Made by a program: the position numbers and the translations under genes. Shown piece after piece: positions 2,717 through 18,827 of a DNA stretch of 46,722 bases. Under the pieces are notes generated by a model. It was not told the DNA's origin, did not search any database, and saw only the letters and a program-made list of their open reading frames with translations. Location: assembly GCA_030427245.1 (NCBI GenBank), contig JAUHXA010000058.1, forward strand, positions 1 to 46,722, written 5' to 3'. This stretch comes from Bacteroidia bacterium (GTDB lineage: Bacteria > Bacteroidota > Bacteroidia > Chitinophagales > UBA2359). Position 1 is the stretch's first letter; each line of letters starts with the position of its first letter.

Positions 2717-2850
2717 AATAATATATTTCATAAAGAAAGGGTCATTGAAATACATACGATATTTGACATAGATTGGTTTTAATGAAGCCACAAAATATAA
2801 TAGTACAGTACAACTTCAATGATATTTCCTCATTTGAATAACTTCCAAAT

Positions 2851-3071: not shown

Positions 3072-4448
3072 TTAAAGTATAGCTTTTGCTTCTTTTGTTA
3101 GTTCATTGTTCATCTTGGGATTCAATGCCATAGATTCTTTCATCAAAGAAATACCATCTGTTTCAGCACCTGTTTTGTGCTTCACCAAACCTGCCAAACA
3201 AAGTAGTTCAGGGTCTTTGAAGTTGGTTTGAAGGGCTTTGTCAATGTGTTTTGCAGCCGCTTCGTAATTTCCTTGTTTGTAGTAAATTTTTGCCATTGCT
3301 TGGTTCACAGTGATGTTGTTCGGGCGTTTCTGATATGCACGCTCGGCGTAGGTCAATGCTTTTTCAGGATTATTACCCAAAGTCAAATAGATGTTGGACA
3401 ATTCCAAATCCATGTTGTGGCCACTTTCTTGGTCTTCTTGAAGCATTTCTACCAATTCTGAATTGAGTTTGTTCACTTCCTCTGTGTTTCCTTCCTCCTG
3501 ATTTACTTCTGCTAAAGTTTGATAGAATGAAAATTCGGGCATTACTTCTGTCGCTTCGTTCAGTAGCTTTTTAGCTTCTGCATAGTTGCCTTTGGCCATT
3601 TCGATTTTAGCCAAACCTGCCGTAGCAAAGGCATAGTTGGGACGTTCACCCAAAGCAGTTTTGTACTGTATGGTGGCATTTTCTAAGTCCCCATAGTTTC
3701 GATACAAATCGCCTAAAGTGATGCGAGCCCAAGCAGTAGCCTCATCACCAGGAAGTCCAGCAGATACCGCCAACTTCATCGCTTCAATCGCTCCTTTGTA
3801 GTCACCATGCAATTCACGCAAGTAAGAAACTCTGGAATAAGAGCGCAAATCAGGGCGAATACTCACCATTTTGTCTGCCATTTTTACCGCTTCTGCATAA
3901 TTACCCAGTTCTACATTGGCATCACACAATGCGCCATATACTTGTGCGTCATGGTCTTCTACTAACAAAGCTTCTTTGCTAACTGCCATGGCTTTTTCAA
4001 ATTCGTGTTGCGATAAATAAACCGAGGCTTTGCTCACCAAAGCTTGAAAGTACATTTGTTTTTGCTTTCCACTAGGTTTTTGAGCAATCACATAATCTAA
4101 AATTTCCAATGCCGCAGGATAGTAATAAGGGTGTTCACCTGTAATACGAGCCTCCTGCATATACAACAGCGCCAAGTAAATAGATGATTTGTGATCAGCA
4201 GGATTCTTTTTCATTTTGTCCTGCAATTCTTTGGCTGTTTTCTGAACGTAATCCCACTCGCTGAGTTCTGCAATTGCACCCTCTCGCTTCAATAATTGTG
4301 GAATTTCAAAATCCGAAACAGCAGTATTTGCTTCTTTTGTTAGGTTACTCGCATTTGCAGTTGTTGTGCTGCTTTCTTGACAATTTGTAAATGAAACGGT
4401 CATCAATACAAGAAGAGCTAATAGATATTTTTTGATGATGATTTGCAT
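3072..4448 (-). CDS. TPR-repeat lipoprotein
   Basis: This codes for 458 residues. The N-terminus M-Q-I-I-I-K-K-Y-L with a hydrophobic core and S-F-T-N-C is a lipoprotein signal, with the modified Cys near residue 24. From about residue 60 to the end there are some ten degenerate 34-residue tetratricopeptide repeats, with typical A-x-x-x-Y-x-x-A and P-x-x-x-x-A-x-x-x-L-A spacing. TPR arrays are protein-interaction scaffolds, so this is probably an envelope-anchored scaffold. It lies 247 bp downstream of four same-strand DUF4331 genes. A terminator-like hairpin and a palindrome separate it from them, so co-transcription is uncertain. Confidence 0.9.
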   Translation of the reverse strand: MQIIIKKYLLALLVLMTVSFTNCQESSTTTANASNLTKEANTAVSDFEIPQLLKREGAIAELSEWDYVQKTAKELQDKMKKNPADHKSSIYLALLYMQEARITGEHPYYYPAALEILDYVIAQKPSGKQKQMYFQALVSKASVYLSQHEFEKAMAVSKEALLVEDHDAQVYGALCDANVELGNYAEAVKMADKMVSIRPDLRSYSRVSYLRELHGDYKGAIEAMKLAVSAGLPGDEATAWARITLGDLYRNYGDLENATIQYKTALGERPNYAFATAGLAKIEMAKGNYAEAKKLLNEATEVMPEFSFYQTLAEVNQEEGNTEEVNKLNSELVEMLQEDQESGHNMDLELSNIYLTLGNNPEKALTYAERAYQKRPNNITVNQAMAKIYYKQGNYEAAAKHIDKALQTNFKDPELLCLAGLVKHKTGAETDGISLMKESMALNPKMNNELTKEAKAIL

Positions 4449-4695: not shown

Positions 4696-7275
4696 CTACT
4701 GTTTCAAAATTTTGGTACTTGCTACTTCTCTTCCATCTGTGATGGTCAAGATGTACATACCACTATTTGCAGCAGAGAAGTTGATTTGATGCTTGTTTTC
4801 TCCTTTTGTAGCAGTTGCCTTATCTGAATAAAGCAATTTACCTACTGCATCGTAAACATGGATGTTTACTTCATTGTCGCTATGGTAGTTGTAGTAAAGC
4901 GCTATGACACCGTTTGCAGAAACAGCCTCTACCCTATCAATCGTCAAGTTGATGTTGCGTTCTCCTCTATTCAAGGCAATTGTTTTGAAGGTTTCTGACT
5001 GACCATTGAAGTCCATTTGCTTCAATCGGTAGTAAGAAGTTCCAACAGGTGCTTGTCTATCCATGAAGTTGTAACTATTTGAAGTAGAAACACTTCCTGC
5101 GCCTACTATCTTAGTAATCGCTTCAAAATCGTTTCCATTCAAAGAACGCTCCAAAATAAAGTAAGCATTGTTTGTTTCGGTAGCAGTCACCCAAGACAAG
5201 AAGTTTCCTTCTTTTTGGACTTCTCCTTCAAAGGATAACAACTCAACAGGTAATTTGGTACAAGCGATGATATCAGAAATAAAGGACACTTCACAACCGT
5301 TTGCATCTACTACATAGATTTCATAGTTGATTCCGTCTGCCAATGGGCCGAGGATGAAAGGTTCTTGGTTTCCTACTTCTCCATTGAAGTTACCAGAAAC
5401 GGTGTAAGGCTCTTGACCTCCATCAATCCACACATCAACGGTGAATATACCATTTGCTTCATCACAAATCACTTGATTTTGAATCATCACAGCACATTCT
5501 ACTTCTTCAATGATTTCTTTACCACTACCAGGACCTGTACCACTCCAAGGCATCGCTACGTAAGGGAAAGCAGATTGGAAGTCAGCATCATTTTCATTGA
5601 CACCAGTTGAGTAAGTATATACGTCCAACAAGTCATCACTTACAGGATTCATACCATCAAAATCGTCGTACCATAAACCGATTGCAGCCAATACGATACC
5701 AGAAACGGCTTGTAACTCTATGCGTGTAACATCATCTTCTAAACGGCGGCCATTCGGGAATCCATCCATATTAGGAATAAACTCAAGGTCCGCATTTCCA
5801 TTGAATCGCTCATCAAGTAGTCCCAATACAGCAGCCTGAACAACACCTAAGTTGCTAAAGTCTTCGCTGTCTCTTGGAGTTGCAGGAACGGCCATATTTA
5901 ATCGAAGCATGTCACCACCATTCGGTAAGAAGTTGTGGATAAATGGTTTTCCAGGAGTCAAAGGGTTTCCGCCCATTTTACCTGTTGCTAATTGGTAAGG
6001 AGGAAAGTTAGGTGCTCCTGTGTGGAAAATAGGCCATAAATCCACTGAACGTGGTGCGCCAGCTTTTGGCAACAATAAAGTACCAAATACAGCATCATCT
6101 AAAGCGGTTCCAGCCAAAGCAGGATTTCCTTTCAATACATACAAACCGTCTTGTCCATTTCCAAAGTCAAAAGGTTCTAAACCTAAAGCACTCGTCAAAC
6201 CTGGTAAAGAAGCACGTTGAATTCGCAAAGGAGCAAATGCAGGTACTGCGCCACCAAACTGATCGTCGTCCATATACAATGCCAATTCAGGATTGTAGAA
6301 ATATTCAAAATGATCGGGATTTTCATTATAAGGAGTTCGGGCATTCCACTCATCTTTTGCACCAATGGGAATAACTGCCTCATTGGTCAATGGCATACCT
6401 AATCTGGAAACTTGCACCCAGTCGCCTTCGAAGGACATGTTTCCCCCAGCACCAAGTGTTCTGATTTGAGGGCGACTAGCAGAAGCCCAAACACCTATTA
6501 CAAAATCACCATCTAAAATATTTGCAGCCTCACCAACTCCTTTTCCATCTTTCTGTAAGGTAGAAATAGGAATCTGTAAAGCGATTGTATGTGTATTCAA
6601 AAATGCAAGACCATCTACGGGTTCGCCATTTTGACGTGGCAAATCACCTAAGTCAAATACGCCACCTAAATCTACAAAGAAAGGGTCGTCTACAGGGCCG
6701 CAAAATACGGTTTCACCTGTTGAAGCAGTTGTGATAGCACTTTGCATAACACTTGCATAATCCATTGCGCCTAAGCCAACACCTGAAGTAATAGAGCGAG
6801 GGCCTATGTTGTTGGGAGGTACAACCCCATCCATGACGATGGTTTCAAAGTTCATTCCACCGTCGGTGCTTCTTTCGAGCGTGTAAGTAGCTTTGATGTT
6901 TTGTGCCCCCAAACGAATATTGAAGAAAGTCGTAGGATCTTCATTCGTTCTGGTAAAAGTCGCTCGGTAAACGATGTCGTCGCCTGGAGTAGCAGTATCA
7001 TTGTCAATATGAATTTCGTATCGAACGTTTTCGCCAAAAGTATAATAGTTGGGACCTCCGTGTGGCAACTCTGCAGGAATATAGTTTGCAATAATGGTAA
7101 CAGAGTTGGGATCATCTGGGCTTACAAAAGCATAGACATCTGTGTTGTCAGCCAAAGGATCGTCGGAGATAAGAGGAGCCTCTCTGTGACTGGAGGCAAA
7201 TGCCATTAGTGGCACCAGTATTAAAAGCAATAGTTGAATTGCCTTTGATGATATATTAAATTTTATTGATTTCAT
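4696..7275 (-). CDS. DUF4331 protein with T9SS C-terminal sorting domain
   Basis: This codes for 859 residues. A signal peptide (hydrophobic core near residues 15-27) ends just before S-S-H-R-E-A-P-L-I, the usual mature start of DUF4331 proteins. The DUF4331 domain fills residues 28 to about 610 and contains L-A-D-N-T-D-V-Y-A-F and W-P-I-F-H-T-G-A-P. A linker domain with C-x-V-x-I-x-N-Q-V-I-C and C-E-V-S-F follows, then a beta-rich L-P-V-E-L-L-S-F segment. A type A sorting domain fills about the last 80 residues, ending S-T-K-I-L-K-Q, so surface secretion by T9SS is predicted. It is the distal partner of the second short-long pair and starts 52 bp after the preceding gene. The molecular function of DUF4331 is not established. 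Confidence 0.92.
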   Translation of the reverse strand: MKSIKFNISSKAIQLLLLILVPLMAFASSHREAPLISDDPLADNTDVYAFVSPDDPNSVTIIANYIPAELPHGGPNYYTFGENVRYEIHIDNDTATPGDDIVYRATFTRTNEDPTTFFNIRLGAQNIKATYTLERSTDGGMNFETIVMDGVVPPNNIGPRSITSGVGLGAMDYASVMQSAITTASTGETVFCGPVDDPFFVDLGGVFDLGDLPRQNGEPVDGLAFLNTHTIALQIPISTLQKDGKGVGEAANILDGDFVIGVWASASRPQIRTLGAGGNMSFEGDWVQVSRLGMPLTNEAVIPIGAKDEWNARTPYNENPDHFEYFYNPELALYMDDDQFGGAVPAFAPLRIQRASLPGLTSALGLEPFDFGNGQDGLYVLKGNPALAGTALDDAVFGTLLLPKAGAPRSVDLWPIFHTGAPNFPPYQLATGKMGGNPLTPGKPFIHNFLPNGGDMLRLNMAVPATPRDSEDFSNLGVVQAAVLGLLDERFNGNADLEFIPNMDGFPNGRRLEDDVTRIELQAVSGIVLAAIGLWYDDFDGMNPVSDDLLDVYTYSTGVNENDADFQSAFPYVAMPWSGTGPGSGKEIIEEVECAVMIQNQVICDEANGIFTVDVWIDGGQEPYTVSGNFNGEVGNQEPFILGPLADGINYEIYVVDANGCEVSFISDIIACTKLPVELLSFEGEVQKEGNFLSWVTATETNNAYFILERSLNGNDFEAITKIVGAGSVSTSNSYNFMDRQAPVGTSYYRLKQMDFNGQSETFKTIALNRGERNINLTIDRVEAVSANGVIALYYNYHSDNEVNIHVYDAVGKLLYSDKATATKGENKHQINFSAANSGMYILTITDGREVASTKILKQ

Positions 7276-7327
7276 TTGTTATGTTATTTACTGTTTAGTT
7301 GAATATTGTTTGAATTTGTATTTTGCC

Positions 7328-9112
7328 TTACTGTCCTACTTCCGTGCCTCTCCAAGGCATTGCTAAGTATGGGAAGGAGCTTCTAAATGGAGCATCGTTT
7401 TGGTCCACTCCAGTAGAGTAAGTATAAACATCCAACAAATCTTGAGAGACAGGATTCATACCATCAAAATCATCGTACCACAAGCCGACAGCAGCCAACA
7501 CGATACCAGAAACTGCTTGTAACTCAATGCGTGTTACATCATCTTCTAAGCGGCGACCATTCGGGAATCCGTCCATATTTGGAATGAATTCAAGGTCTGC
7601 GTTTCCATTGAAGCGAGGGTCTAACAATCCCAAAACAGCTGCCTGAACAACACCTAAGTTGCTGAAGTCTTCGCTGTCTCTTGGGGTAATAGGTACTGCC
7701 ATATTCAATCTCAACATATCACCACCATTCGGTAAGAAATTGTGAATAAATGGTTTTCCAGGTGTCAAAGGATTGCCACCCGTTTTGCCTGTTGCCAATT
7801 GATAAGGAGGAACATTGGGTGCACCAGTGTGAAAAATAGGCCACAAATCTACAGAACGTGGAGCTCCTGCTTTTGGCAGCAATAAAGTACCAAATACCGC
7901 ATCATCCAACGCAGTTCCTGCCAATGCAGCATTTCCCTTCAATGGGAATAAACCATCTTGTCCATTTCCAAAGTCGAAAGGATCTAATCCCAAAGCGCTT
8001 GTTAAACCTGGCAAAGAGGCACGTTGGATGCGAAGAGGGGCAAAAGCTGGAACAGCACCACCAAATTGCTCATCGTCCATATACAATGCCAATTCAGGAT
8101 TGTAGAAATATTCAAAATGGTCAGAATTTTCATTATAAGGAGTTCTTGAGTTCCAATCGTCTTTTGAACCAATAGGAATCACTGCTTCGTTGGTCAATGG
8201 CATTCCCAAACGAGACACCTGAACCCAATTACCTTCAGTAGTAGGCTTTGTACCATCTGTATTAAGGGTTCGCATTGCTTGACGGCTCGCAGAAGCCCAC
8301 ACACCAATCACAAAATTTCCATCTAAAATATTGTCTGCCATATTAACACCCATTCCATCTTTTTGAAGGGTACTGATAGGAACTTGAATCGCAATAGCAT
8401 GGCAGTTTACACCACCCAATCCGTCACGAGGATTTTCTCCTTGACGAGGCAAGTTGCCCAAATCAAATACAGCTCCTAAATCCACATAGAAAGGATCATC
8501 TACAGGTCCACAAAATACGTTTTCACCAGTTGAAGCTGTTGTAATAGCATTGTTTGAAAGATCTGCATAGCTTGTAGCACCTAAACCAACACCACTCTCA
8601 ATAGAACGAGGTCCAATATTAGTTGGAGGAACAACACCATTTTCTACAATTGTTTGAAAAGTTGTGCCGCCGTCCATACTTCTTTCTAAAGTATAAGTTG
8701 CTTTGCGGTTTTGTGCTCCCAAACGAATGTTGAAGAAAGTAGTCGGGTCTTCGTTGGTGTGCGTAAAAGTTGCACGATAAATAATGTCGTCGCCTGGAGT
8801 AGCAGTATCATTGTCAATGTGAATTTCATAGCGGATATTTTCTCCAAATGTGTAATAATTAGGACCGCCTTGTGGCAGTTCAGCTGGAATGTAATTCGCT
8901 ATTATGGTAATCATATTTGGATTCTCTGGGCTTCTAAAAGCATACAAATCCGTATTGTCTGCCAATGGATCATTGGCAATTAGTGGAGCTTCTCGGTGAC
9001 TAGAAGCTTCAACAGGAACAGTAAATATTCCGAATGTCATCAAGAGACATAGGAACATCAACCATAGACTTTGGGTAATCCCCATAAAATGAGGTGACTT
9101 CGCTGAATACAT
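7328..9112 (-). CDS. DUF4331 protein, short form without sorting domain
   Basis: This codes for 594 residues: a signal peptide (M-Y-S-A-K-S... with a hydrophobic core ending V-P-V-E-A) followed by S-S-H-R-E-A-P-L-I and one complete DUF4331 domain. The domain ends at the usual S-F-P-Y-L-A-M-P-W motif, and the protein stops 9 residues later. No T9SS domain is present, so it probably stays in the periplasm or is exported differently from its neighbour. By eye it is very similar to the first 600 residues of the neighbour and, especially in the signal peptide, to the protein encoded at 12109-13866. The leader just before the ATG is shared with that gene. It is first in the second pair and is preceded by an ECF-type promoter motif. 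Confidence 0.92.
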   Translation of the reverse strand: MYSAKSPHFMGITQSLWLMFLCLLMTFGIFTVPVEASSHREAPLIANDPLADNTDLYAFRSPENPNMITIIANYIPAELPQGGPNYYTFGENIRYEIHIDNDTATPGDDIIYRATFTHTNEDPTTFFNIRLGAQNRKATYTLERSMDGGTTFQTIVENGVVPPTNIGPRSIESGVGLGATSYADLSNNAITTASTGENVFCGPVDDPFYVDLGAVFDLGNLPRQGENPRDGLGGVNCHAIAIQVPISTLQKDGMGVNMADNILDGNFVIGVWASASRQAMRTLNTDGTKPTTEGNWVQVSRLGMPLTNEAVIPIGSKDDWNSRTPYNENSDHFEYFYNPELALYMDDEQFGGAVPAFAPLRIQRASLPGLTSALGLDPFDFGNGQDGLFPLKGNAALAGTALDDAVFGTLLLPKAGAPRSVDLWPIFHTGAPNVPPYQLATGKTGGNPLTPGKPFIHNFLPNGGDMLRLNMAVPITPRDSEDFSNLGVVQAAVLGLLDPRFNGNADLEFIPNMDGFPNGRRLEDDVTRIELQAVSGIVLAAVGLWYDDFDGMNPVSQDLLDVYTYSTGVDQNDAPFRSSFPYLAMPWRGTEVGQ

Positions 9113-9336
9113 AGTTAAAGTATTTAGAATTAATAAATGAGGTTAATAAAAGAAATAAAATGAGGAACTTGTGATGGTTATCGCTTATTGAACATACAGA
9201 ACAGCATCGTTTTTTTAGAAAAATGATTTGTTATATGTTTCTTTACGAAAAACGACTCATCAACTTTTATTGTACTTCTCTTTTTATTTGTTGTATTTAC
9301 ATAAACACAACTACTTATTTGTTGTGTTCGGTTTTA

Positions 9337-9364
9337 CTTACGAGAGAAAGGATGATTTGGATTA
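9337..9364 (-). promoter_or_regulatory. Predicted ECF (SigK-like) promoter P2
   Basis: On the minus strand TAATCC (9364-9359), 16 bp, then CGTAAG (9342-9337). It has the same elements and exactly the same spacer as three other sites in this region. It would start transcription about 220 nt before the short DUF4331 gene at 9112. Confidence 0.7.
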
Positions 9365-9400
9365 CGAAGAATAAAAAAAAGAAAAAATTATTTGAAAACT

Positions 9401-9465
9401 GAAAAAAGAAAAACCTTTCTTATTGCACTGTTTCTATCCAATACAAAGAGAAAGGTTTCTTTTTG
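9401..9465. terminator. Rho-independent terminator, both strands
   Basis: AAACCTTTCT (9411-9420) pairs with AGAAAGGTTT (9449-9458) and is flanked by A-rich sequence on the left and T-rich on the right. It can therefore end minus-strand transcription leaving the gene at 9518-12052. The loop is long (28 bases). Confidence 0.7.
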
Positions 9466-9517
9466 AAATCATGTCATTTTATAGACTTCAATGATTTCAT
9501 ACAGTCTTTCAGCTATA

Positions 9518-12052
9518 TTATTTGGTGACAACTAATTTCCTGTGTGTAATCGTGTTGCCATTGCGGTCGTTCAATCGGGCTATGTAAACACCTGCGGGTA
9601 ATTCGCTTACATTCAATGGGATTTGGTAAGATTCGTCTGAATTTACCTCACCATTAAATACAGTAGCCAATCTTTGCCCAGCCATGCTGAATATTTCCAA
9701 ACTTACTCTCTGACTCTCACCAACATAAAATTGAAGGTTGGCAGTAAAGTTGGCAGGGTTTGGAGAAATTTGGAAGAAAGCATCATCCATATCTGCAATT
9801 GCAGCTTTTCGACCACGACCGCGACCACCGCCAGTGTTTCCACTTCCTGCAACTGGTACGAAGAAAGTCTTTACAGTAGTATAATTTCCGTCGGTAATGG
9901 TAACAGTATAATTCGTAGAAGTCAAACCACTAATATCTTGTGTAGTTGCTCCATTTGACCAAGAATATTCGTAGTCGCCAGAACCACCTGATACACTTAT
10001 ATCCAATGCTCCATCGTTAGCAGCAGCTGCACTCTCAATAGTCGTACTTACCAAAGTAACCGTAAGTAAGTCTCCGCCAATTCCACCACTAATGGTAGAA
10101 GAACACCCGTTTGCATCTGTTACCATCAAGGTAAAGCTTGCGCCAATACCTACGGATAAGCGTACTTGATCAGTACCCAGCTTTCTGAAAATCACATTTC
10201 CAGAGCGCTCAACAAAGTTGACTTCAAAAGGAGCAGCTCCTGAAAGCGTCAATGTATAGGTATCAAAATTAGAAGCTGATGTTTGTTCAATACTGATATC
10301 ACAATCTTCAGCATTCTCAATTTCTGTGCCTCCACAAGCACCTGTTCCAATAAATGGAGCAGCTACATAAGGGAAAGCAGACTTCAATGATTTGTCATTT
10401 TGTTCAATACCAGTAGTGTAAGTCAATACGCTCAACAAATCATCGGTAACACCTGCACCATCATCATACCACAAGCCAATTGCAGCCAATACAATACCAC
10501 TCACTGCTTGCAATTCAATTCGAGTCACATCATCTTCCAAGCGACGTCCGTTTGGAAATCCATCCATGTTGGGAATAAATTCCAAATCAGCAGTTGTATT
10601 GAATCGAGGATCGGTCAAACCTAAAACAGCTGACCATACCAAACCCAATGAACTAAAATCATCACTGTCTCTTGGGGTTGGAGGTACTGCCATGTTTAAT
10701 CGAAGAACGTCTCCACCTGTAGGTAAGAAATTGTTGATAAATGGTTTACCTGCTGCCAATGGGTTTCCTTCTTTACCTGTTGCCAATTGATAGGGCGGAA
10801 AATTAGGTGCTCCTGTGAAGAAAATAGGCCACAGATCTACAGAACGAGGTGCGCCAGCTTTTGGCAACAATAAGTTACCAAAAATTGCATCATCTAAAGC
10901 AGTACCATCTAAAGCAGGATCTCCCTTCAATACAAACAAACCATCTTTGCTATTTCTGAAGTCAAATGCACCAAGTGAGGCAGTCTGAATACGCAAAGGG
11001 TCAAATGCAGGTACTGCTACTGCAAACTGACTTTCATCCATATACAATGCCAACTCAGGATTGTAGAAGTACTCAAAATTAGCAGGATCTTCTGAATAAG
11101 GTGTGTCTGCATTCCATTGGTCTTTAGCTGCAATCGGAATCACTGCTTCGTTGGTCAATGGCATACCTAAGCGAGATACTTGTACCCAACCTTGACTCTC
11201 ATCAACTGTTACAGTACCGTCTCCATTCAAGGTTCTGATTTTTGGACGACTTGCAGAAGCCCAAACACCAATCACAAAATCACCATCTAAAATATTGGCT
11301 GCTTGACTTGCGTTTTTACCATCTTTCTGCAAAGTAGAAATGGGAATTTGAAGTGCAATTGAGTGAACATTGAAACAAGCCAAACCATCTGTGGCAGGAG
11401 GGCTGTCCAATCGAGGCGCATCTCCTAAATCAAAGATTCCACCTAAATCCACATAAAATGGATCATCGGCAGGACCACAAAACACTTTTTCTCCTGAACT
11501 TGCAGTAGTAATCGCATCTTGAATGATAGAGGAATAATCTTGCGCACCCAAACCAACTCCTGTTTGGATAGAACGAGGTCCGATATTGTTTGGAGGAACT
11601 ACTCCGTCCGTAACAACAATCTCAAAGGTTGCACCTCCATCTACACTACGCTCCAATGTGTAGGTTGTTTTTAGGTTTTGAGCACCTAAACGAATATTGA
11701 AGAAGGTTGTACCATCTTCATTTATTTGGTCAAAAGTAAAGCGGTAAATGATGTCATCACCAGCTGTACCTGCATCATTATCAACATGGATTTCGTAGCG
11801 AATATTTTCGCCAAAATTGTAATAATTAGGTCCACCATGTGGCAATTGACCAGGAATATAATTGGCAATAATGGTGACGGTTTCGGGATTGTCAGGACTG
11901 ACAAAGGCATAAACGTCTGTATTGTCTGCCAAAGGATCATTGGCAATAAGAGGTGCTTCTCGGTGACTCGAAGCCTCTAGTGCTGTGTAGCCAAGACATG
12001 TCAATACGACTGCCCATAGCATAAAGCGGGTTAGAAAATTGTTAAATTTCAT
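9518..12052 (-). CDS. DUF4331 protein with SprB repeat and T9SS sorting domain
   Basis: This codes for 844 residues. A signal peptide ends L-E-A before S-S-H-R-E-A-P-L-I, and the DUF4331 domain runs to about residue 585. Then come a G-A-C-G-G-T-E-I-E-N-A-E-D-C linker, a beta-rich domain and a SprB-type repeat near residues 675-735 (G-G-S-G-D-Y-E-Y-S-W-S-N-G-A-T-T). A short basic G-R-G-R-G-R-K linker and a type A sorting domain (S-P-N-P-A-N-F... to V-V-T-K) complete the protein. The SprB repeat and sorting domain predict a cell-surface product of T9SS. It starts 56 bp after the gene at 12109-13866 and is the long partner of the first pair. Its C-terminal part is unrelated in detail to that of the other long paralogue. 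Confidence 0.92.
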   Translation of the reverse strand: MKFNNFLTRFMLWAVVLTCLGYTALEASSHREAPLIANDPLADNTDVYAFVSPDNPETVTIIANYIPGQLPHGGPNYYNFGENIRYEIHVDNDAGTAGDDIIYRFTFDQINEDGTTFFNIRLGAQNLKTTYTLERSVDGGATFEIVVTDGVVPPNNIGPRSIQTGVGLGAQDYSSIIQDAITTASSGEKVFCGPADDPFYVDLGGIFDLGDAPRLDSPPATDGLACFNVHSIALQIPISTLQKDGKNASQAANILDGDFVIGVWASASRPKIRTLNGDGTVTVDESQGWVQVSRLGMPLTNEAVIPIAAKDQWNADTPYSEDPANFEYFYNPELALYMDESQFAVAVPAFDPLRIQTASLGAFDFRNSKDGLFVLKGDPALDGTALDDAIFGNLLLPKAGAPRSVDLWPIFFTGAPNFPPYQLATGKEGNPLAAGKPFINNFLPTGGDVLRLNMAVPPTPRDSDDFSSLGLVWSAVLGLTDPRFNTTADLEFIPNMDGFPNGRRLEDDVTRIELQAVSGIVLAAIGLWYDDGAGVTDDLLSVLTYTTGIEQNDKSLKSAFPYVAAPFIGTGACGGTEIENAEDCDISIEQTSASNFDTYTLTLSGAAPFEVNFVERSGNVIFRKLGTDQVRLSVGIGASFTLMVTDANGCSSTISGGIGGDLLTVTLVSTTIESAAAANDGALDISVSGGSGDYEYSWSNGATTQDISGLTSTNYTVTITDGNYTTVKTFFVPVAGSGNTGGGRGRGRKAAIADMDDAFFQISPNPANFTANLQFYVGESQRVSLEIFSMAGQRLATVFNGEVNSDESYQIPLNVSELPAGVYIARLNDRNGNTITHRKLVVTK

Positions 12053-12108
12053 TATATATATTTTATATTTTATTTAAAATTGATTTAGATAAAGAGGAGG
12101 TTCTCCAT

Positions 12109-13866
12109 TTAGAAACCTTCTGTTCCTCTCCAAGGTGCTGCTACATAAGGAAAGCTTTCTTGAAATGGTTTGTCGTTGGCTTCAACACCCGTTGTATAAC
12201 CAAGTACGTTCAACAAATCTTCGGTTACAGGATTTGTACCATCAAAATCATCGTACCACAAACCAATTGCAGCTAACACAATACCGCTCACTGCCTGCAA
12301 TTCAATACGAGTCACATCATCCTCCAAACGACGACCATTTGGAAAGCCATCCATATTCGGAATAAATTCGATATCGGTATTGGCAAATTGTGGATCCAGC
12401 AAACCTAAGACAGCCGCTTGTACCAATCCCAAGGAACTGAAAGCATCATCATCACGAGGAGTTGCAGGAACGGCCATATTCAAACGGAGCATATCTCCAG
12501 CCGAAGGCAAAAAGTTATTGATAAAAGGTTTGCCTGCTGCCAGCGGGTCACCGTTTTTACCTGTGGCTAATTGGTAGGGTCTAGCATTGGGAGCACCTGT
12601 GTAAAAAATAGGCCACAAGTCAACCGAACGTGGAGCACCAGCTTTGGGAAGCAATAACCCTCCAAAAGAAGATTCTGCTAATACAGTTCCGTCCAATGCA
12701 GGTGAACCTTTTAGAATGAATGCACCATCTGCACCATTTGTAAAGTCAAGTCCCAATCCCAATGAGTTTTTCTGAATACGCAAAGGGGCAAATGCAGGAA
12801 CTGCACCACCAAATAAATCATCGTCCATATACAATGCCAATTCAGGGTTGTAAAAATGCTCATAAAGGGCTGCATCTTCGCCACATGGGCTTAGTGAATT
12901 CCAGTAATCTTTTGACATAATCGGAATGACAGCTTCGTTGGTTAAAGGCATTCCCAATCGAGACACTTGCACCCAAGTCCCACTATCTTCAATCAAATCT
13001 CCACTGCTGTTCAATGTTCTTACAGAGGGGCGGCTTGCAGAAGCCCAAACACCAATGACGAAATCTCCGTCTAATATATTGGCTGCTTGGCTCACATCTT
13101 TACCGTCTTTTTGCAAGGTCGAAATAGGTATTTGTAGAGAAATGGTATGGCAGTTGAAACCACCCAATCCATCTCTTGAATTTCCTGTTTGACGGGGAGC
13201 GTCTCCCAAATCAAAAATTCCGCCTAAATCTACAAAGAAAGGATCGTCAACAGGGCCGCAAAATACGGTTTCACCAGTTGAAGTGCTTGTTATGGCCGCA
13301 TCCATCAAGTCTTCATAGCTATCTGCACCCAATCCAACTACAGTGTTTTGGCTTTCGATAGAACGAGGTCCAATATTGTTTGGAGGAACGATACCATCTT
13401 CTACAATGGTTGTAAAACTTGCACCACCATCCATACTTCTTTGAAGCGTGTAGGTAGTTTTTAGGTTTTCGCCGAATCGTATATTGAAGAAAGTAGTAGG
13501 ATCTTCATTTTCTTTTGAAAAAGTAAATCGGTAAATAATTTCTTCACATGCTGCACTTGCATCATTGTCAATGTGAATTTCGTAACGAATGTTTTCGCCG
13601 AATGAATAGTAGTTGGGGCCTCCTTGCGGAAGTTCTGCGGGAATGTAGTTGGCGATAATCGTTACTGTGTTTGGATCATCTGGACTTACAAAAGCATAAA
13701 CATCTGTGTTGTCTGCTAAGGGATCGTTTGAAATAAGTGGGGCTTCTCTATGGCTGGATGCTTCAATAGGTGTATTGAATATCCCTAAGGATAATGCAAT
13801 ACCTAGAATCATTAACCACATACCCTTAACACTGCCAAGAGGTTGGAGTAACTTTAATGAAAACAT
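12109..13866 (-). CDS. DUF4331 protein, short form without sorting domain
   Basis: This codes for 585 residues. The signal peptide (M-F-S-L-K-L-L... ending N-T-P-I-E-A) is followed by S-S-H-R-E-A-P-L-I and a single DUF4331 domain ending S-F-P-Y-V-A-A-P-W-R-G-T-E-G-F. It lacks any sorting domain. It is the first gene of the first pair and is transcribed from promoter P1, about 85 nt upstream. Signal peptide, length and leader sequence match the short paralogue at 7328-9112 better than the long ones, so the two short genes descend from one ancestor and the whole pair was duplicated. It lies divergent to the RskA-like anti-sigma gene. Confidence 0.92.
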   Translation of the reverse strand: MFSLKLLQPLGSVKGMWLMILGIALSLGIFNTPIEASSHREAPLISNDPLADNTDVYAFVSPDDPNTVTIIANYIPAELPQGGPNYYSFGENIRYEIHIDNDASAACEEIIYRFTFSKENEDPTTFFNIRFGENLKTTYTLQRSMDGGASFTTIVEDGIVPPNNIGPRSIESQNTVVGLGADSYEDLMDAAITSTSTGETVFCGPVDDPFFVDLGGIFDLGDAPRQTGNSRDGLGGFNCHTISLQIPISTLQKDGKDVSQAANILDGDFVIGVWASASRPSVRTLNSSGDLIEDSGTWVQVSRLGMPLTNEAVIPIMSKDYWNSLSPCGEDAALYEHFYNPELALYMDDDLFGGAVPAFAPLRIQKNSLGLGLDFTNGADGAFILKGSPALDGTVLAESSFGGLLLPKAGAPRSVDLWPIFYTGAPNARPYQLATGKNGDPLAAGKPFINNFLPSAGDMLRLNMAVPATPRDDDAFSSLGLVQAAVLGLLDPQFANTDIEFIPNMDGFPNGRRLEDDVTRIELQAVSGIVLAAIGLWYDDFDGTNPVTEDLLNVLGYTTGVEANDKPFQESFPYVAAPWRGTEGF

Positions 13867-13955
13867 AGTTAAGTATTTAGAATTAAAATAAAAAGATAAA
13901 ACTGAAAAGAAGATGAATAACCTTTAGAATTGTTTTTCCTTCTTGCTCAAGCTCA

Positions 13956-13983
13956 CTTACGAGAAAATGGTTTGTTTGGATTA
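13956..13983 (-). promoter_or_regulatory. Predicted ECF (SigK-like) promoter P1
   Basis: On the minus strand TAATCC (13983-13978), 16 bp, then CGTAAG (13961-13956). Expected initiation is about 80-85 nt before the ATG at 13866. It lies back to back with the plus-strand copy at 14029, so both divergent units share one control region. Confidence 0.72.
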
Positions 13984-14028
13984 TACTATATTGAAAAAAA
14001 GTTTTTTTATTTATTTTTGGAACCTTGG

Positions 14029-14056
14029 TAATCCAAAGCTTTGTTTTTATCGTAAA
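14029..14056 (+). promoter_or_regulatory. Predicted ECF (SigK-like) promoter P3
   Basis: TAATCC (14029-14034), 16 bp, then CGTAAA (14051-14056). It lies about 100 bp upstream of the RskA-like gene, suggesting that the sigma factor induces its own inhibitor. Confidence 0.7.
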
Positions 14057-14159
14057 TAAATTCAGACCCAACACTTAATTAACCCAATTAAAAAACCTTT
14101 ATAAAACTTAAAATAGACATTCTATAACACTACTTTTTGTCTAACATTACATTATTATT

Positions 14160-14966
14160 TTGAATATACAAAACTATATATCATCTGGCATCCTTGAATT
14201 TTATGCAATGGACGCTCTTTCTGTAATTGAAAAACAGGAAGTTGAGTCAATGATGGAAAAGCATGAGGAGTTAAAACTTGAATTGTTAGAGATTCAAAAG
14301 ACTTTAGAATCCTATGCCTCCCTTCATTCTATTCCTCCGCCCTCAACCATTCTACAATTAGTGGTTGAAACCGTTACTAAAGACGGGGTTTCTTCGAATA
14401 AGCAGCCTGTGGCGAATATTGCTGCGTTGAGGCGAATTCAACATTTCAAATATATTGCAATAGCTGCCACCGTTTTATTGGTTTTAAGTGCAGCCCTAAA
14501 CTGGAAATATTATCTCGCACTCGAAAAAGCCAATACTGAGATTGCATTTTTAAATCAAGAACAAGAAAAACTTGTCAACAACTTCAATAGTATGCAGGCA
14601 ACATACGATGTGGCAAGTGTGGAATTGGAGGTTTTGCAAAATCCAGATAATAAGATTGTGAAAATGTCAGGCACTGAAAACCATCCTGAATCTATGGCGT
14701 ATGTTTATTGGAATGTAGAATCACAAGAAGTATATGTAAAAATTGGAAACCTTCCTGCACCTCCTACTCAAAAACAATATCAACTATGGGCACTAAAAGA
14801 CGGTATTCCTATTGACGCAGGTGTCTTTGATGTGGAAAAAGGATTGTTGAAAGTAAAAGATATTGAAGCTGCTGATGCTTTTGCTGTAACGCTTGAACCC
14901 CAAGGTGGTAGCAAACAGCCTACTTTAGAGGATTTACAAGTCATAGGCGAGATTAAGTTAATATAG
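14160..14966 (+). CDS. RskA-family anti-sigma factor
   Basis: This codes for 268 residues: a cytoplasmic N-terminal sigma-binding region (residues 1-70, with an I-S-S-G-I-L-E-F-Y-A-M pattern), one transmembrane helix (about 97-118), a short coiled coil and a C-terminal RskA domain. The RskA domain contains Y-V-Y-W-N and Y-Q-L-W-A-L-K-D-G-x-P. Such proteins hold ECF sigma factors at the inner membrane until regulated proteolysis. The start is a TTG at 14160: a stop lies five codons upstream in frame, no ATG is available, and the truncated paralogue at 15062-15328 aligns from its own ATG. It is divergent from the DUF4331 genes and is preceded by the ECF-type motif P3. A 16-bp terminator stem follows. 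Confidence 0.88.
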   Translation: MNIQNYISSGILEFYAMDALSVIEKQEVESMMEKHEELKLELLEIQKTLESYASLHSIPPPSTILQLVVETVTKDGVSSNKQPVANIAALRRIQHFKYIAIAATVLLVLSAALNWKYYLALEKANTEIAFLNQEQEKLVNNFNSMQATYDVASVELEVLQNPDNKIVKMSGTENHPESMAYVYWNVESQEVYVKIGNLPAPPTQKQYQLWALKDGIPIDAGVFDVEKGLLKVKDIEAADAFAVTLEPQGGSKQPTLEDLQVIGEIKLI

Positions 14967-14983
14967 TACCTGATAAATGACTA

Positions 14984-15027
14984 AAAAAATACCCTGTTTT
15001 GGTAAATCCAAAACAGGGTATTTTTTT
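14984..15027. terminator. Strong bidirectional terminator
   Basis: AAATACCCTGTTTTGG (14987-15002) and its perfect complement (15008-15023) form a 16-bp stem with a five-base loop, flanked by A and T runs. It separates the convergent full-length and truncated anti-sigma genes. Confidence 0.92.
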
Positions 15028-15061
15028 AGGGAGTTGATCTAATAATATTGTTTTTGGCATT

Positions 15062-15328
15062 TTACTGCCTCCTTCTTCTACCTTTTGGTGTATTTGAATC
15101 CAATTGGTTAATGGAAGATAAAATCTTATTTTTCAGATGTGGTGGAGGCATTTTGGAAAAACTATTCGCATATTCTTCAAGTGTATATTGAATAGCATTA
15201 ACTTCTGCTTGAATAACCTCATTCATGGAGCACAATTTTTCTACTTCAAATTGCTCAGACTTTGATATTATTCCCATGCAATAAGCCTCTAAAATGCCTG
15301 TGTTGATATAATCATTAATTGTTGGCAT
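15062..15328 (-). CDS. Truncated RskA-like anti-sigma protein (sigma-binding part only)
   Basis: This codes for 88 residues. It aligns over about 70 residues with the N-terminus of the full-length anti-sigma factor at 14160-14966 (I-N-D-Y-I-N-T-G-I-L-E-A-Y-C-M against I-Q-N-Y-I-S-S-G-I-L-E-F-Y-A-M, and a shared M/I-P-P-P). It then ends in a basic tail, K-G-R-R-R-R-Q. The transmembrane helix and RskA domain are absent, and the 95 bp to the next gene hold only a terminator, so nothing degenerate remains. It lies 256 bp downstream of the sigma gene on the same strand, where an anti-sigma gene is expected. It may be a soluble, signal-independent inhibitor, or a decaying duplicate. Confidence 0.8.
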   Translation of the reverse strand: MPTINDYINTGILEAYCMGIISKSEQFEVEKLCSMNEVIQAEVNAIQYTLEEYANSFSKMPPPHLKNKILSSINQLDSNTPKGRRRRQ

Positions 15329-15399
15329 GATGATTTAATTTTCTTTGTAAATATTAGTTTTCAGGAAAACAGGTAAAACCGCTTAAACAATAGGGGGTA

Positions 15400-15437
15400 T
15401 TTATAGTGGGTGAAATCCAATCACCCTAATCTATAAA
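15400..15437. repeat. Two-step palindromic hairpin in the sigma/anti-sigma gap
   Basis: The outer stem TTTATAG/CTATAAA and inner stem GGGTGA/TCACCC are separated by a small asymmetric internal loop and capped by AATCCAA. It could be an operator or an mRNA structure between the sigma gene and the truncated anti-sigma gene. There is no T run, so it is a poor terminator. Confidence 0.6.
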
Positions 15438-15584
15438 ATAAGATGGAGTTTTCTTTTGTTGGTTTAAAAGGTAGGTAAAATTGGGGTATCTGTTTCTGTA
15501 TTAAGGGAGAAATAATTGGGAACTTTAAATTAAAAACGCTACTTTATATCTTTTTGTTTTACTTTGCAGAAAATATATATTGTT

Positions 15585-16169
15585 TTACATCAATTTTCGC
15601 AACTCTCTTATTGCAATTCTTACACGGGACTTGACTGTTCCCAAAGGAATGTCAAATTGATCTGCAATTTCTCTTTGAGTGTAACCTTGAAAATAAACAA
15701 GGTCTATGATTTGTTTCAATGTAGGATCCAATCTTTCAACAATTTTACGTAGACCGATTGTTTGAATGTTGGTTTCCGTACTCAATATATCAGGGGTATA
15801 CACTTGTTCACTTATACTGTCTGTTCTTGAGTCTGCACGAAAAGCCTTTGAACGAACAAAATCAATAGCACTATTACGTGCGATGTTGAGCATCCATGTA
15901 AAAAATCGCCCTTTATTTGAATCATAGCCCTCTATGTTCTTCCAAATCTTGACAAAAGTATCTTGTAATATGTTCTCTGAATGATGTTGAGAGCGTGTAA
16001 TTCGCATGATTACACCATATAATGCTGCAGCGTAATTATCATATAATAGATTTAAAGCAACTTTATTATGTGCTTTCAATAGAGCAACCAACTGTTTTTC
16101 TGATATGTTAGGGTTGTTTTCCAAGTGATGATTACTTTGTAAAGTCTTAGTAATATTGGTTGAGTTCAT
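15585..16169 (-). CDS. ECF RNA polymerase sigma factor, SigK-like
   Basis: This codes for 194 residues. Region 2 spans about 42-110, with L-Q-D-T-F-V-K-I-W and F-F-T-W-M-L-N-I-A-R-N. Region 4 spans about 140-190, with Y-F-Q-G-Y-T-Q-R-E-I-A-D and P-L-G-T-V-K-S-R. Region 3 is missing, as in extracytoplasmic-function sigma factors. Two RskA-type genes next door place it with the SigK/RskA group. It probably directs transcription from the four TAATCC-N16-CGTARR sites. A CAATCC element lies at 16211-16206 before its own gene, but the matching -10 is poor (GGAAGT), so autoregulation is uncertain. Confidence 0.92.
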   Translation of the reverse strand: MNSTNITKTLQSNHHLENNPNISEKQLVALLKAHNKVALNLLYDNYAAALYGVIMRITRSQHHSENILQDTFVKIWKNIEGYDSNKGRFFTWMLNIARNSAIDFVRSKAFRADSRTDSISEQVYTPDILSTETNIQTIGLRKIVERLDPTLKQIIDLVYFQGYTQREIADQFDIPLGTVKSRVRIAIRELRKLM

Positions 16170-16475
16170 TATGAATAATAATTACTTCCTCAAAAATAAC
16201 AATTTGGATTGAAAAATACGATTATTGCGATAAAAGTGCACAAAAATTAATCCTTGAATAATCCATCTATCAAGAAATATCGTAGGTATCGATATAAATC
16301 AAAGAAAGGTAACAAGCAACCTTTAACTTAGTTCATCTGAATAAGCAATTCCAACAACTATTTATCTTCTATTCATTAGTTCTCTTGTCTCATTAATGAC
16401 AACCAGCTTATAGAAAATAGTCTAAGATTGCATTACAGTATTTCATCTAAATTCCCTAAAAAAATATTATCAATC
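16170..16475. other. Divergent control region between sigma factor and TonB receptor genes
   Basis: These 306 bp carry the ECF-type motif P4 on the plus strand and an incomplete match on the minus strand in front of the sigma gene. There is no other ORF or RNA gene that I can support. Confidence 0.6.
16259..16286 (+). promoter_or_regulatory. Predicted ECF (SigK-like) promoter P4
   Basis: TAATCC (16259-16264), 16 bp, then CGTAGG (16281-16286). It keeps the spacing of P1-P3 but has one deviation in the -10 element and lacks the A-tract after the -35 element. It would transcribe the TonB receptor with a leader of about 180 nt. Confidence 0.58.
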
Positions 16476-18827
16476 ATGTATTTGACCAACCCTACTGAAA
16501 AAATCACTATTCATTCATCAATTCAATCTGTTGCCTCAAAGATATTTGCTTTTTTTAAATATTTTAGAATATTAATAGTATTTAGTTTGATGTTTTTGTC
16601 ATTCAACTGCCTTTTCGCCCATCACGGGATGATAAAAGGAACTGTTTATGACAGTGAAACCCAACTTCCCTTGATAGGAGCAAACATTTGGCTCAACAAT
16701 ACCGAACAAGGCGCAGTTACCAACGAATTTGGCATCTACCGTTTTCAGCATTTGGCTCCAGGTATCTATCAAATCAGTATATCCTTCATTGGTTTTGAGG
16801 CTCAAGAATTTGCCATTGAAGTAAAGGACGAAACCACGGTTACACCTAAGACCTACCTCAAAACAAGCAGTTTGCAGCTTAATGAAGCAGTTGTAAGGGC
16901 GAGTGGCAGTATGAAAGACCAACTCAGCAGTATTCAAGCAATAGATGTGGCACTCCGTCCTGCCAATTCTTCACAAGACATTCTTCGGGTTGTGCCAGGG
17001 CTTTTCATCGGTCAACATGCAGGGGGCGGCAAAGCCGAGCAGATTTTTTTGAGAGGCTTTGACATCGATCACGGCACCGATATTCGCCTCACCGTAGATG
17101 GGATGCCTGTCAATATGGTCTCTCATGCTCACGGTCAAGGATATGCGGATCTCCATTTTTTGATTCCCGAAACAGTGGGTTTTACCCAATTCGACAAAGG
17201 TCCTTATTATGCTAGTCAAGGAGATTTTACAACAGCCGGCTATGTGAACTTCCGCACCAAAAATGCAGTCGACAAAAGTATGGTCAAACTCGAAGCAGGA
17301 CAGTTTGATACCAAACGAGCAGTGGCGCTGATAGATGTACTCGGCAAGGACAACAACGAGCGTAAACAAAGTGCCTACATCGCCTCAGAATACCTATTCG
17401 CCAATGGTGCCTTTGAAAGTCCTCAAAACTTTCGACGCATCAACCTCATGGGCAAATACCATCAGCACTTCAACAACGATAAAATATTGACTGCAACTTT
17501 CTCTCACTTCAACAGTCAGTGGGATGCTTCTGGGCAAATTCCACAAAGAGCCGTTGACAGTGGTTTGATTGGCCGTTTTGGAGCAATTGACGATACGGAA
17601 GGCGGCAATACGAGCCGTACAAATCTCAATTTGCAGCTTACCTCCTTTACCGAAAATGGTCATCTTTTCAAAAACCAATTCTACTATTCACACTACGATT
17701 TTGAACTCTATTCCAATTTCACTTTCTTCTTAGAAGACCCCGAAAATGGCGACCAAATCCGCCAAAAGGAAGACCGACACATTTTCGGCTACAATACGAC
17801 TTTCAATTTGGAAAAAAGCTTGGCAAATCGTCCACTCTATACCGAAATCGGGGCGGGCATTCGCTTTGACAACAGCGATGAAAACGAGCTTTCACACACC
17901 AAAAACCGCACCACTATATTGGAGCGAATAGCGTATGGCGATATTGACGAAACCAATCTCAATGCGTATGTAGATGTCACTTGGGATTTCGCTAAAAAAT
18001 TCAGCCTCAATACGGGATTGCGTTATGATCAGTTTCAATTTGAATATGTAGATTTTCTTCAAACAAATTATGATCGTCAATCTCAAAACAAAGGTATCCT
18101 TGCCCCCAAAATCAGTTTGTTTTACGACTTGAACAAAAAAATGCAACTGTATGGTAAGGCAGGAGTGGGTTTTCACTCCAATGATGCACGGGTAGTGGTC
18201 GCTCAAAATGGCACTCAAATCCTTCCCAAAGCTTTTGGTACAGACATTGGGCTATTGTGGAAACCAATAGACAATCTTTTGGTCAATGTAGGCGCATGGC
18301 GCTTGAATTTAGAGCAGGAATTTGTCTATGTAGGAGATGCAGGCGTAGTCGAGCCGAGTGGCGAAACCGAGCGTTTTGGTTTGGATGTTTCCCTCCGTTT
18401 TCAGCCAACGGATTGGCTCTACTTGGATACAGATCTTAACCTCACCGAAGCCAAAGCAATAGGTGAACCTGAAGGAGCAAATTATATTCCATTAGCTCCT
18501 CTATTCACAAGTATTGGTGGTTTGACTGTCCGACATCCTTCTGGCTTCAATGGCAGTTTGCGTTACCGATACATGGGCGACCGTCCTGCAAATGAGGACT
18601 ATAGTATCACGGCCACAGGTTATTTCATTTTAGATGCAGTGGTGAAATACACCCACAGTCGCTTTGAAGTTGGAATTTCTGTTGAAAACCTTATGGATGT
18701 AGAATGGAACGAAACCCAATTCGATACAGAATCTCGTTTATCAAATGAACCCAATCCTGTTTCAGAAATTCACTTTACACCAGGGACTCCGTTTTTTGGA
18801 AAGGTAGGGGTTGGAGTATTCTTCTAG
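16476..18827 (+). CDS. TonB-dependent outer-membrane receptor
   Basis: This codes for 783 residues from ATG 16476. The frame opens at a TTG at 16428, but the ATG is preferred. A long N-terminal leader precedes a signal peptide (I-L-I-V-F-S-L-M-F-L-S-F) that ends before A-H-H-G. A carboxypeptidase-regulatory-like beta-sandwich follows (G-T-V-Y-D-S-E-T-Q-L-P-L-I-G-A-N-I). Next come a plug domain (V-P-G-L-F-I-G, I-F-L-R-G-F-D-I-D-H-G-T-D, H-A-H-G-Q-G-Y-A-D) and a 22-strand-type barrel ending in phenylalanine (K-V-G-V-G-V-F-F). The His-rich plug loop could bear on metal substrates, but that is a guess. It is divergent from the sigma gene and carries ECF motif P4, so it probably belongs to the DUF4331 regulon. 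Confidence 0.9.
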   Translation: MYLTNPTEKITIHSSIQSVASKIFAFFKYFRILIVFSLMFLSFNCLFAHHGMIKGTVYDSETQLPLIGANIWLNNTEQGAVTNEFGIYRFQHLAPGIYQISISFIGFEAQEFAIEVKDETTVTPKTYLKTSSLQLNEAVVRASGSMKDQLSSIQAIDVALRPANSSQDILRVVPGLFIGQHAGGGKAEQIFLRGFDIDHGTDIRLTVDGMPVNMVSHAHGQGYADLHFLIPETVGFTQFDKGPYYASQGDFTTAGYVNFRTKNAVDKSMVKLEAGQFDTKRAVALIDVLGKDNNERKQSAYIASEYLFANGAFESPQNFRRINLMGKYHQHFNNDKILTATFSHFNSQWDASGQIPQRAVDSGLIGRFGAIDDTEGGNTSRTNLNLQLTSFTENGHLFKNQFYYSHYDFELYSNFTFFLEDPENGDQIRQKEDRHIFGYNTTFNLEKSLANRPLYTEIGAGIRFDNSDENELSHTKNRTTILERIAYGDIDETNLNAYVDVTWDFAKKFSLNTGLRYDQFQFEYVDFLQTNYDRQSQNKGILAPKISLFYDLNKKMQLYGKAGVGFHSNDARVVVAQNGTQILPKAFGTDIGLLWKPIDNLLVNVGAWRLNLEQEFVYVGDAGVVEPSGETERFGLDVSLRFQPTDWLYLDTDLNLTEAKAIGEPEGANYIPLAPLFTSIGGLTVRHPSGFNGSLRYRYMGDRPANEDYSITATGYFILDAVVKYTHSRFEVGISVENLMDVEWNETQFDTESRLSNEPNPVSEIHFTPGTPFFGKVGVGVFF

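Follow-up and report, generated by a model that had tools for sequence, protein, structure and literature searches.

The 46,722-nucleotide stretch of a Bacteroidia bacterium genome analyzed here (assembly GCA_030427245.1, contig JAUHXA010000058.1; the whole stretch is referred to as the window) contains four copies of a two-block element, TAATCC-N16-CGTARR, together with genes for a SigK-like extracytoplasmic function (ECF) sigma factor and an RskA-like anti-sigma factor, which raises the question of whether these copies are promoters and, if so, which sigma factor reads them. We hold, with a probability of roughly 0.8, that they are promoters read by the window's own SigK-like sigma factor and that the rskA promoter of relatives is embedded in the linker of the sigma gene, a copy that has decayed in the window. 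Such a promoter would consist of the −35 block AATCC and the −10 block CGTA followed by NNT, with a spacer of 16.

The initial annotation placed four exact matches in the window, each ahead of a separate transcription unit (two pairs of DUF4331 genes, the rskA-like gene, and a TonB receptor gene), and both statements hold, coordinates and strands included (Table 1). Four matches are found where 0.02 are expected, and at least four occur in 0 of 100 shuffles, a figure that flatters the enrichment because the pattern was derived from these same four sites. An independent check was made with a matrix built from 39 intergenic sites of relatives, the window sites excluded: its top four scores over the 46.7 kb are the four sites, the next-best place reaching 14.8 bits, and in 100 Markov control sequences of window length, the best score was at least 18 bits in five and at least 20 bits in one, with a maximum of 21.5. 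The TonB site is the weakest of the four, because an earlier, smaller matrix of 31 sites dropped it to 14.0 bits and rank 7, which is noise level. The distance from CGTA to the start codon is 91 nt for the DUF4331 pair starting at 13866, 226 nt for the pair starting at 9112, 105 nt for the rskA-like gene (14160), and 143 to 191 nt for the TonB receptor (start at 16428 or 16476). No upstream site above noise was seen for the window's sigma gene in the matrix scan; a stretch at 16182-16213 (minus strand), considered as the gene's own site, was rejected, as it has the −35 block only and scores at noise level.

Whether the element has significance beyond the window was assessed in loci of relatives, the best 80 of 494 found with an alignment of the four window DUF4331 paralogues. 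All are labeled as Bacteroidetes groups (many of them Saprospiraceae or Lewinella-like), except for L037 (Saccharospirillaceae), L051 (“bacterium”), and L086 (Rhodothermales). DUF4331 proteins are present in 79 of these loci, TPR lipoprotein-like proteins in 58, RskA-like proteins in 22, the sigma factor in 21, the TonB receptor in 19, and HupE/UreJ proteins in 8, all of which are lower bounds because many of the loci are short contigs. Over their 1.24 Mb, NAATCC-N17-CGTA occurs 53 times and the N16 form 21 times, as compared with 6 to 18 occurrences for each of eight other spacings, and a dyad count (5+4) made with no prior motif upstream of 75 DUF4331 leaders ranks AATCC-N17-CGTA first (25 of 75). 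Under a leave-one-locus-out matrix (spacer 16 or 17, threshold of 14 bits), sites precede 42 of 79 DUF4331, 13 of 44 TPR, 3 of 7 TonB, 2 of 6 rskA, and 2 of 20 sigma leaders, against 6 of 380 leaders of other families; for genes inside operons, the corresponding counts are 4 of 58 for DUF4331, 3 of 17 for rskA, 1 of 9 for TonB, 0 of 14 for TPR, and 0 of 151 for other genes, and control spacings give at most one site per gene class. Exact sites are also oriented, with sense and antisense counts of 27 and 1 for the 79 DUF4331 leaders, 10 and 1 for the 44 TPR leaders, 3 and 1 for the 7 TonB leaders, and 6 and 7 for the 380 others. These leader, operon, and orientation counts indicate that the motif marks the transcription-unit starts of the window's gene families. 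Across 298 genomes of the order, with up to ten sigma candidates scored per genome, the sigma factor (E < 1e-50) is present in 65 of 70 genomes with DUF4331 (match < 1e-70) and in 98 of the 228 others. The proposal that the sites form an ECF regulon of a SigK-like sigma factor is thus supported by a motif conserved and oriented ahead of orthologues, by its spacing of 16 or 17, by synteny, and by co-occurrence.

The initial annotation put forward a genome-wide scan as a check. The exact pattern TAATCC-N16-CGTARR occurs five times in the 7.58-Mb genome, four of them inside 7 kb of the window, and the reversed pattern four times; a relaxed pattern (spacing of 14 to 18, CGTA only) occurs 40 times, against 37 for its reversed control. 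Because the relaxed total resembles that of the control, the motif alone is not specific, and clustering and position are what count; we therefore abandoned the genome-wide motif count as a proof of specificity. When AAWCC-N16/17-CGTARNTR is sought, the matches outside open frames of at least 100 codons number five, namely, the four window sites and a site on contig 39 of the same genome (locus L280, 138453-138481). The latter scores 27.5 bits, the best of the 20 genome matches to this pattern, and lies 60 nt before a gene for a CHRD-domain protein, which is likely, judging from this site, to be a fifth member of the regulon; in the relative L033, a CHRD protein with plastocyanin and type IX secretion system (T9SS) domains has a motif site as well. 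The fifth exact TAATCC-N16-CGTARR match, at about 1500-1530 of L001 (contig 103), is about 100 nt before a queG-like gene, which we take to encode an epoxyqueuosine reductase, and we do not claim this gene as a member.

The sigma factor proposed to read these sites has only regions 2 and 4 (PF04542 and PF04545, both over their cut-offs), with a short linker between them, and is thus of the ECF type, scoring 101 bits against the sigma70-ECF family TIGR02937 (cut-off, 42.9). The annotation's placement of a SigK-like sigma gene among the sites stands with respect to domains, synteny, and closest structure. Among solved structures, M. tuberculosis SigK (4nqw_A) is closest to the single protein (E of 2.8e-21), with RpoE (2q1z_A) nearly equal when a sigma profile is used (4e-32, compared with 1.6e-32 for 4nqw_A). 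SigK (NF007228) is also its best NCBIfam family, but at 120 bits against a cut-off of 226, and the two cysteines of the SigK family are lacking, there being none in the 194 residues; the available text of the relevant study (PMC7509140) reports conservation of Cys 133 and Cys 183 in 94% of ECF18 members and in 56% of ECF19 members. The window's anti-sigma factor contains an RskA_C domain well above the cut-off of 29.4 bits (PF10099; Table 1), and its single sequence gave no match among solved structures at an E value of ≤1. According to the accessible part of a survey (PMC7406223), a class I anti-sigma factor is nearby in just 6% of Bacteroidetes ECFs, which makes this sigma-rskA group unusual for the phylum.

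Several relatives have a matrix match within the sigma gene, ahead of rskA. Among 42 nonredundant sigma genes of a first set, 13 reach 15 bits, all of them in the linker between sigma2 and sigma4, on the sense strand, and 211 to 280 nt before the gene end, whereas synonymous shuffles give a mean of 0.45 and a maximum of 3 (200 runs). A second set, drawn from 60 new regions, chosen in rank order from genomes outside the first set, and from 30 loci of the same ranking, comprised 90 sigma genes, or 74 after removal of those more than 93% identical to one another or to the first set; rskA follows sigma directly and co-directionally in 74 of 74, and the linker position is the best-scoring place of the whole gene in 57. 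With the linker class defined as AAWCC-N16/17-CGTA situated 12 to 34 codons past the region 2 Trp, 49 of these 74 order-level genes have an exact site (shuffles: mean of 1.45, maximum of 6; 200 runs), as do 21 of 44 first-set genes, here not deduplicated (mean of 0.96, maximum of 4). Outside this class (elsewhere in the gene or lacking the Trp landmark), the exact pattern is found in two further genes in each of the two sets. In these sets, eight other spacings occur 0 or 1 time each, and the antisense counts are 0 and 1. Sigma-gene sites are mostly AAACC (90%) and intergenic sites mostly AATCC (71%). Three genes without an embedded site (L270, L274, and L275) have an exact site upstream of sigma instead, and a further gene, L251, has both.

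The embedded site extends to other orders of the class, where 24 of 27 nonredundant genes have it (shuffles: mean of 0.83, maximum of 5), two of the sites being about 11 codons earlier, and, more sparsely, to other classes of the phylum, where 2 of 10 genes have an exact site (mean of 0.10, maximum of 1) and others have near matches in the same place; the 20 additional regions used for this test of other orders and classes were hand-picked from listed places. None of six other ECF sigma genes contains the motif.

The codons of the linker are under constraint at the level of DNA. When 101 sigma genes (74 plus 27) are aligned and the Trp and Met columns are set aside, third-base uniformity among the 175 well-filled columns is greatest in five, all of which belong to the promoter: K (AAA), N (AAC), a codon ending in C that precedes Val, Val itself (GTA), and the next codon, which ends in T. 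GTA encodes the linker Val in 84 of 89 genes but the Val of the GTVK motif, which is just as conserved, in 33 of 89. The codon just before the linker Val has no preferred residue, yet its wobble base is C in 84%. A T three bases after CGTA, which lies outside the search pattern, is present at every one of the 55 intergenic and 51 sigma-gene sites. Moreover, the −35 block shifts by one base against the reading frame, largely by family: spacer 16 (peptide K-N/I-Q) is found in families f20 and f8 and in 6 of 7 genes of f3, and spacer 17 (K-T-D/E) in 14 of 15 genes of f17, two of the sites counted being located beyond the linker. That one DNA motif should be spelled in two registers is hard to attribute to a constraint on the protein.

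The window is the exception among these arrangements. Its sigma and rskA genes are convergent and about 620 nt apart, and its linker keeps the peptide RTDSISEQVY, the codons of which (ACA for T, CAA before Val, and GTG for Val) no longer spell the promoter. The intergenic site ahead of rskA matches the promoter-like element embedded in the sigma gene of many relatives. Such an arrangement would be expected if the embedded site serves to drive rskA.

In the mechanism that we propose, a membrane-bound RskA-like protein would hold the sigma factor until some signal releases it; the freed sigma factor would then transcribe both DUF4331 operons, the TonB receptor gene, the CHRD-domain gene elsewhere in the genome, and rskA, but not its own gene. 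Newly made RskA would end the response, which would amount to an envelope response with a built-in shut-off. For many relatives, in which sigma and rskA form one operon, the rskA promoter would be written into the codons linking sigma2 to sigma4; in the window, where the genes are separated, rskA would rely on an intergenic copy and the embedded one would have decayed. More generally, it is probable that the SigK-like sigma gene is dual-coding throughout the class, its linker serving as a promoter for the anti-sigma gene that is read by the encoded sigma factor itself. The DNA would then shape the peptide in two registers (KNQ at a spacer of 16, KTD at a spacer of 17), and, once the pair splits, rskA would have a free copy while the embedded one decays.

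Other explanations of the same sites can be weighed against this. The four sites might be promoters of a different ECF sigma factor, with the SigK-like gene merely adjoining them, as could be argued from the lack of a site for the window's sigma gene itself and from the presence of its family in only 21 of the 80 loci, a good number of which are short contigs. Sigma-like matches number 33 in the genome, so the assignment of the sites to the window's sigma factor rests on synteny and co-occurrence. This alternative is unlikely, however, given that the motif is embedded in most other-order genes of this sigma group (24 of 27) and in none of the six other ECF sigma genes, and that DUF4331 and the sigma factor co-occur (65 of 70 versus 98 of 228 genomes). 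A binding site for a transcription regulator, as opposed to a promoter, would also account for two short blocks at near-fixed spacing, but AATCC and CGTA are neither inverted nor direct repeats of each other, the spacer differs by one base from lineage to lineage, which sigma promoters tolerate, the sites face the gene (27 sense versus 1 antisense among 79 DUF4331 leaders), and the linked regulator is a sigma/anti-sigma pair; we regard this as quite improbable.

With respect to the embedded copy, transcription is predicted to begin at least about 200 nt ahead of the sigma stop codon, and the resulting long leader spans the coding part of sigma4, so that the embedded promoter might serve a small RNA or a truncated fragment of sigma4, rskA being expressed mainly from the operon promoter. 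The intergenic site of the stand-alone rskA gene in the window and the direct succession of rskA in 74 of 74 genes make this, too, quite improbable. Least probable, by a narrow difference, is that the embedded motif arises incidentally, from the need of the sigma factor for the linker peptide K(N/T/I)..(L/I)(D/E)xxV. The window's sigma factor keeps this peptide without the DNA motif, and the protein may therefore value the peptide itself, but protein-preserving synonymous shuffles yield about 1.5 sites in 74 genes, not 49, and the excess of GTA at the linker Val and the wobble C at a preference-free codon also speak against it.

Several observations weigh against promoters read by the window's sigma factor, with an embedded counterpart in relatives. 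In the genome, AAWCC-N16/17-CGTARNTR has 20 matches against 39 for its reversed control, and 15 of the 20 are inside open frames. The genome contains another sigma-rskA pair (L120, contig 164; sigma 46% identical) that has no motif site at 15 bits, and, as noted above, sigma-like matches are many. Among relatives, 37 of 79 DUF4331 leaders are without a site at 14 bits and 6 unrelated leaders have one; in the first scan, no member of the four query families lay within 1 kb of 20 of the 53 N17 and 10 of the 21 N16 matches, a part of which proved to precede TPR genes. An exact linker site is missing from 25 of 74 and 3 of 27 sigma genes and is confined to 2 of 10 in other classes, and in 10 of 74 the exact pattern precedes the sigma gene, so that direct autoregulation also occurs. 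The loss of the embedded promoter after a split is represented by one case, the window, and the co-occurrence and codon counts are raw, with kinship ignored.

Table 1. Sites and genes of the window discussed in the text
Feature	Position	Strand	Basis or remark
TPR lipoprotein-like protein	3072..4448	-	43% identical to L048 member of TPR family
DUF4331 protein with T9SS sorting tail, pair 2, second gene	4696..7275	-	Domain match
DUF4331 protein, pair 2, first gene	7328..9112	-	Domain match
Promoter-like TAATCC-N16-CGTAAG	9337..9364	-	Ahead of DUF4331 pair 2; 25.6 bits, window rank 1
DUF4331 protein with T9SS sorting tail, pair 1, second gene	9518..12052	-	Domain match
DUF4331 protein, pair 1, first gene	12109..13866	-	Domain match
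Promoter-like TAATCC-N16-CGTAAG	13956..13983	-	Ahead of DUF4331 pair 1; 24.2 bits, window rank 2
Promoter-like TAATCC-N16-CGTAAA	14029..14056	+	Ahead of rskA-like gene; 20.3 bits, window rank 3
RskA-like anti-sigma factor, TTG start, RskA_C domain	14160..14966	+	PF10099, 78.4 bits; NF052375, 107.3 bits (cut-off, 100)
ECF sigma factor, SigK-like, 194 aa, no Cys	15585..16169	-	Domains; best solved relative 4nqw_A (SigK)
Linker segment ADSRTDSISEQVYTPDI, aligned with embedded promoter of relatives	15786..15836	-	Promoter no longer spelled
Promoter-like TAATCC-N16-CGTAGG	16259..16286	+	Ahead of TonB receptor; 18.0 bits, window rank 4
TonB-dependent receptor	16428..18827	+	Domain match

The DUF4331 genes of the window (4696-13866) form two tandem pairs, each of a short protein and a T9SS-tailed one, where the loci of relatives usually have one pair within reach. 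An AlphaFold2 model of DUF4331 has a mean predicted local distance difference test score (pLDDT) of 49 and is too poor to search, so that it yields no fold-based function, and the name DUF4331 is not mentioned in the open literature searched. HupE/UreJ proteins, a metal uptake-like family, are membrane proteins encoded beside DUF4331 in the eight loci counted above (L058, 3122-3793, and seven more), which hints at a role in metal handling. For the TPR gene of the window, no separate site was seen, and the gene may be read from the promoter of pair 2. At 2750-2782 (minus strand), AAAACC-N16-CGTATGTA scores 14.7 bits, which is noise level; about 35 nt downstream is a possible start codon for a small secreted protein that contains Cys and has no Pfam match.

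The analysis supplies a promoter consensus and a predicted regulon, with DUF4331, TPR lipoprotein-like, TonB receptor, and CHRD-domain proteins as its likely named members, for a sigma/anti-sigma group that spans several orders of one class and of which we found no description in the open literature searched. If the proposal is true, a promoter within the sigma coding sequence turns autoregulation into negative feedback on sigma, and the linker is a clear case of regulatory DNA constraining a protein. Searches of the open literature by title and start of abstract returned the C. glutamicum study discussed below but no class-wide anti-sigma promoter inside a sigma gene, although unsearched print may hold one. 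In 2009, Staron reportedly sought ECF promoters via autoregulation, upstream of sigma genes. The survey of Rhodius (2013; PMC3817407), as far as its available text goes, likewise searched upstream of sigma genes. The promoters surveyed have two blocks and a variable spacer, as here, but only 10 of 74 sigma genes here have an exact upstream site, and surveys confined to that region could therefore miss this sigma group.

Among known systems, SigK-RskA with MPT70/MPT83, of Mycobacterium tuberculosis and also Yersinia enterocolitica, resembles the window in pairing an ECF sigma factor with an RskA-type anti-sigma factor and in having a regulon with secreted or envelope proteins beside the pair. 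The differences are in the targets, which here are DUF4331, TPR, TonB, and CHRD proteins, in the absence of cysteine from the window's sigma factor, and in the motif, AAWCC/CGTANNT as opposed to the CCATCC/CGAATA of SigK, a consensus that we found stated in no paper of the open literature searched. The available text of one study describes a conserved mpt83-sigK-rskA cassette with a SigK site and autoregulation of M. tuberculosis sigK via Rv0449cp (PMC7509140), whereas in the window it is rskA, not sigma, that has the site.

The SigH-RshA system of Corynebacterium glutamicum, the SigH of which belongs to a different sigma group, shares the feedback logic, with a sigma-dependent promoter ahead of the anti-sigma gene. 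There, in the accessible part of the report (PMC3489674), a SigH-dependent promoter drives rshA alone, with starts 62 and 66 nt upstream of rshA and a proposed role in shutting off the response; that account concerns one species and neither locates the promoter with respect to the sigH codons nor mentions a class-wide linker element under codon constraint, whereas the promoter proposed here would occupy linker codons and is conserved across orders. It is this position and this conservation that appear to be new, the feedback logic itself having its precedent in C. glutamicum rshA.

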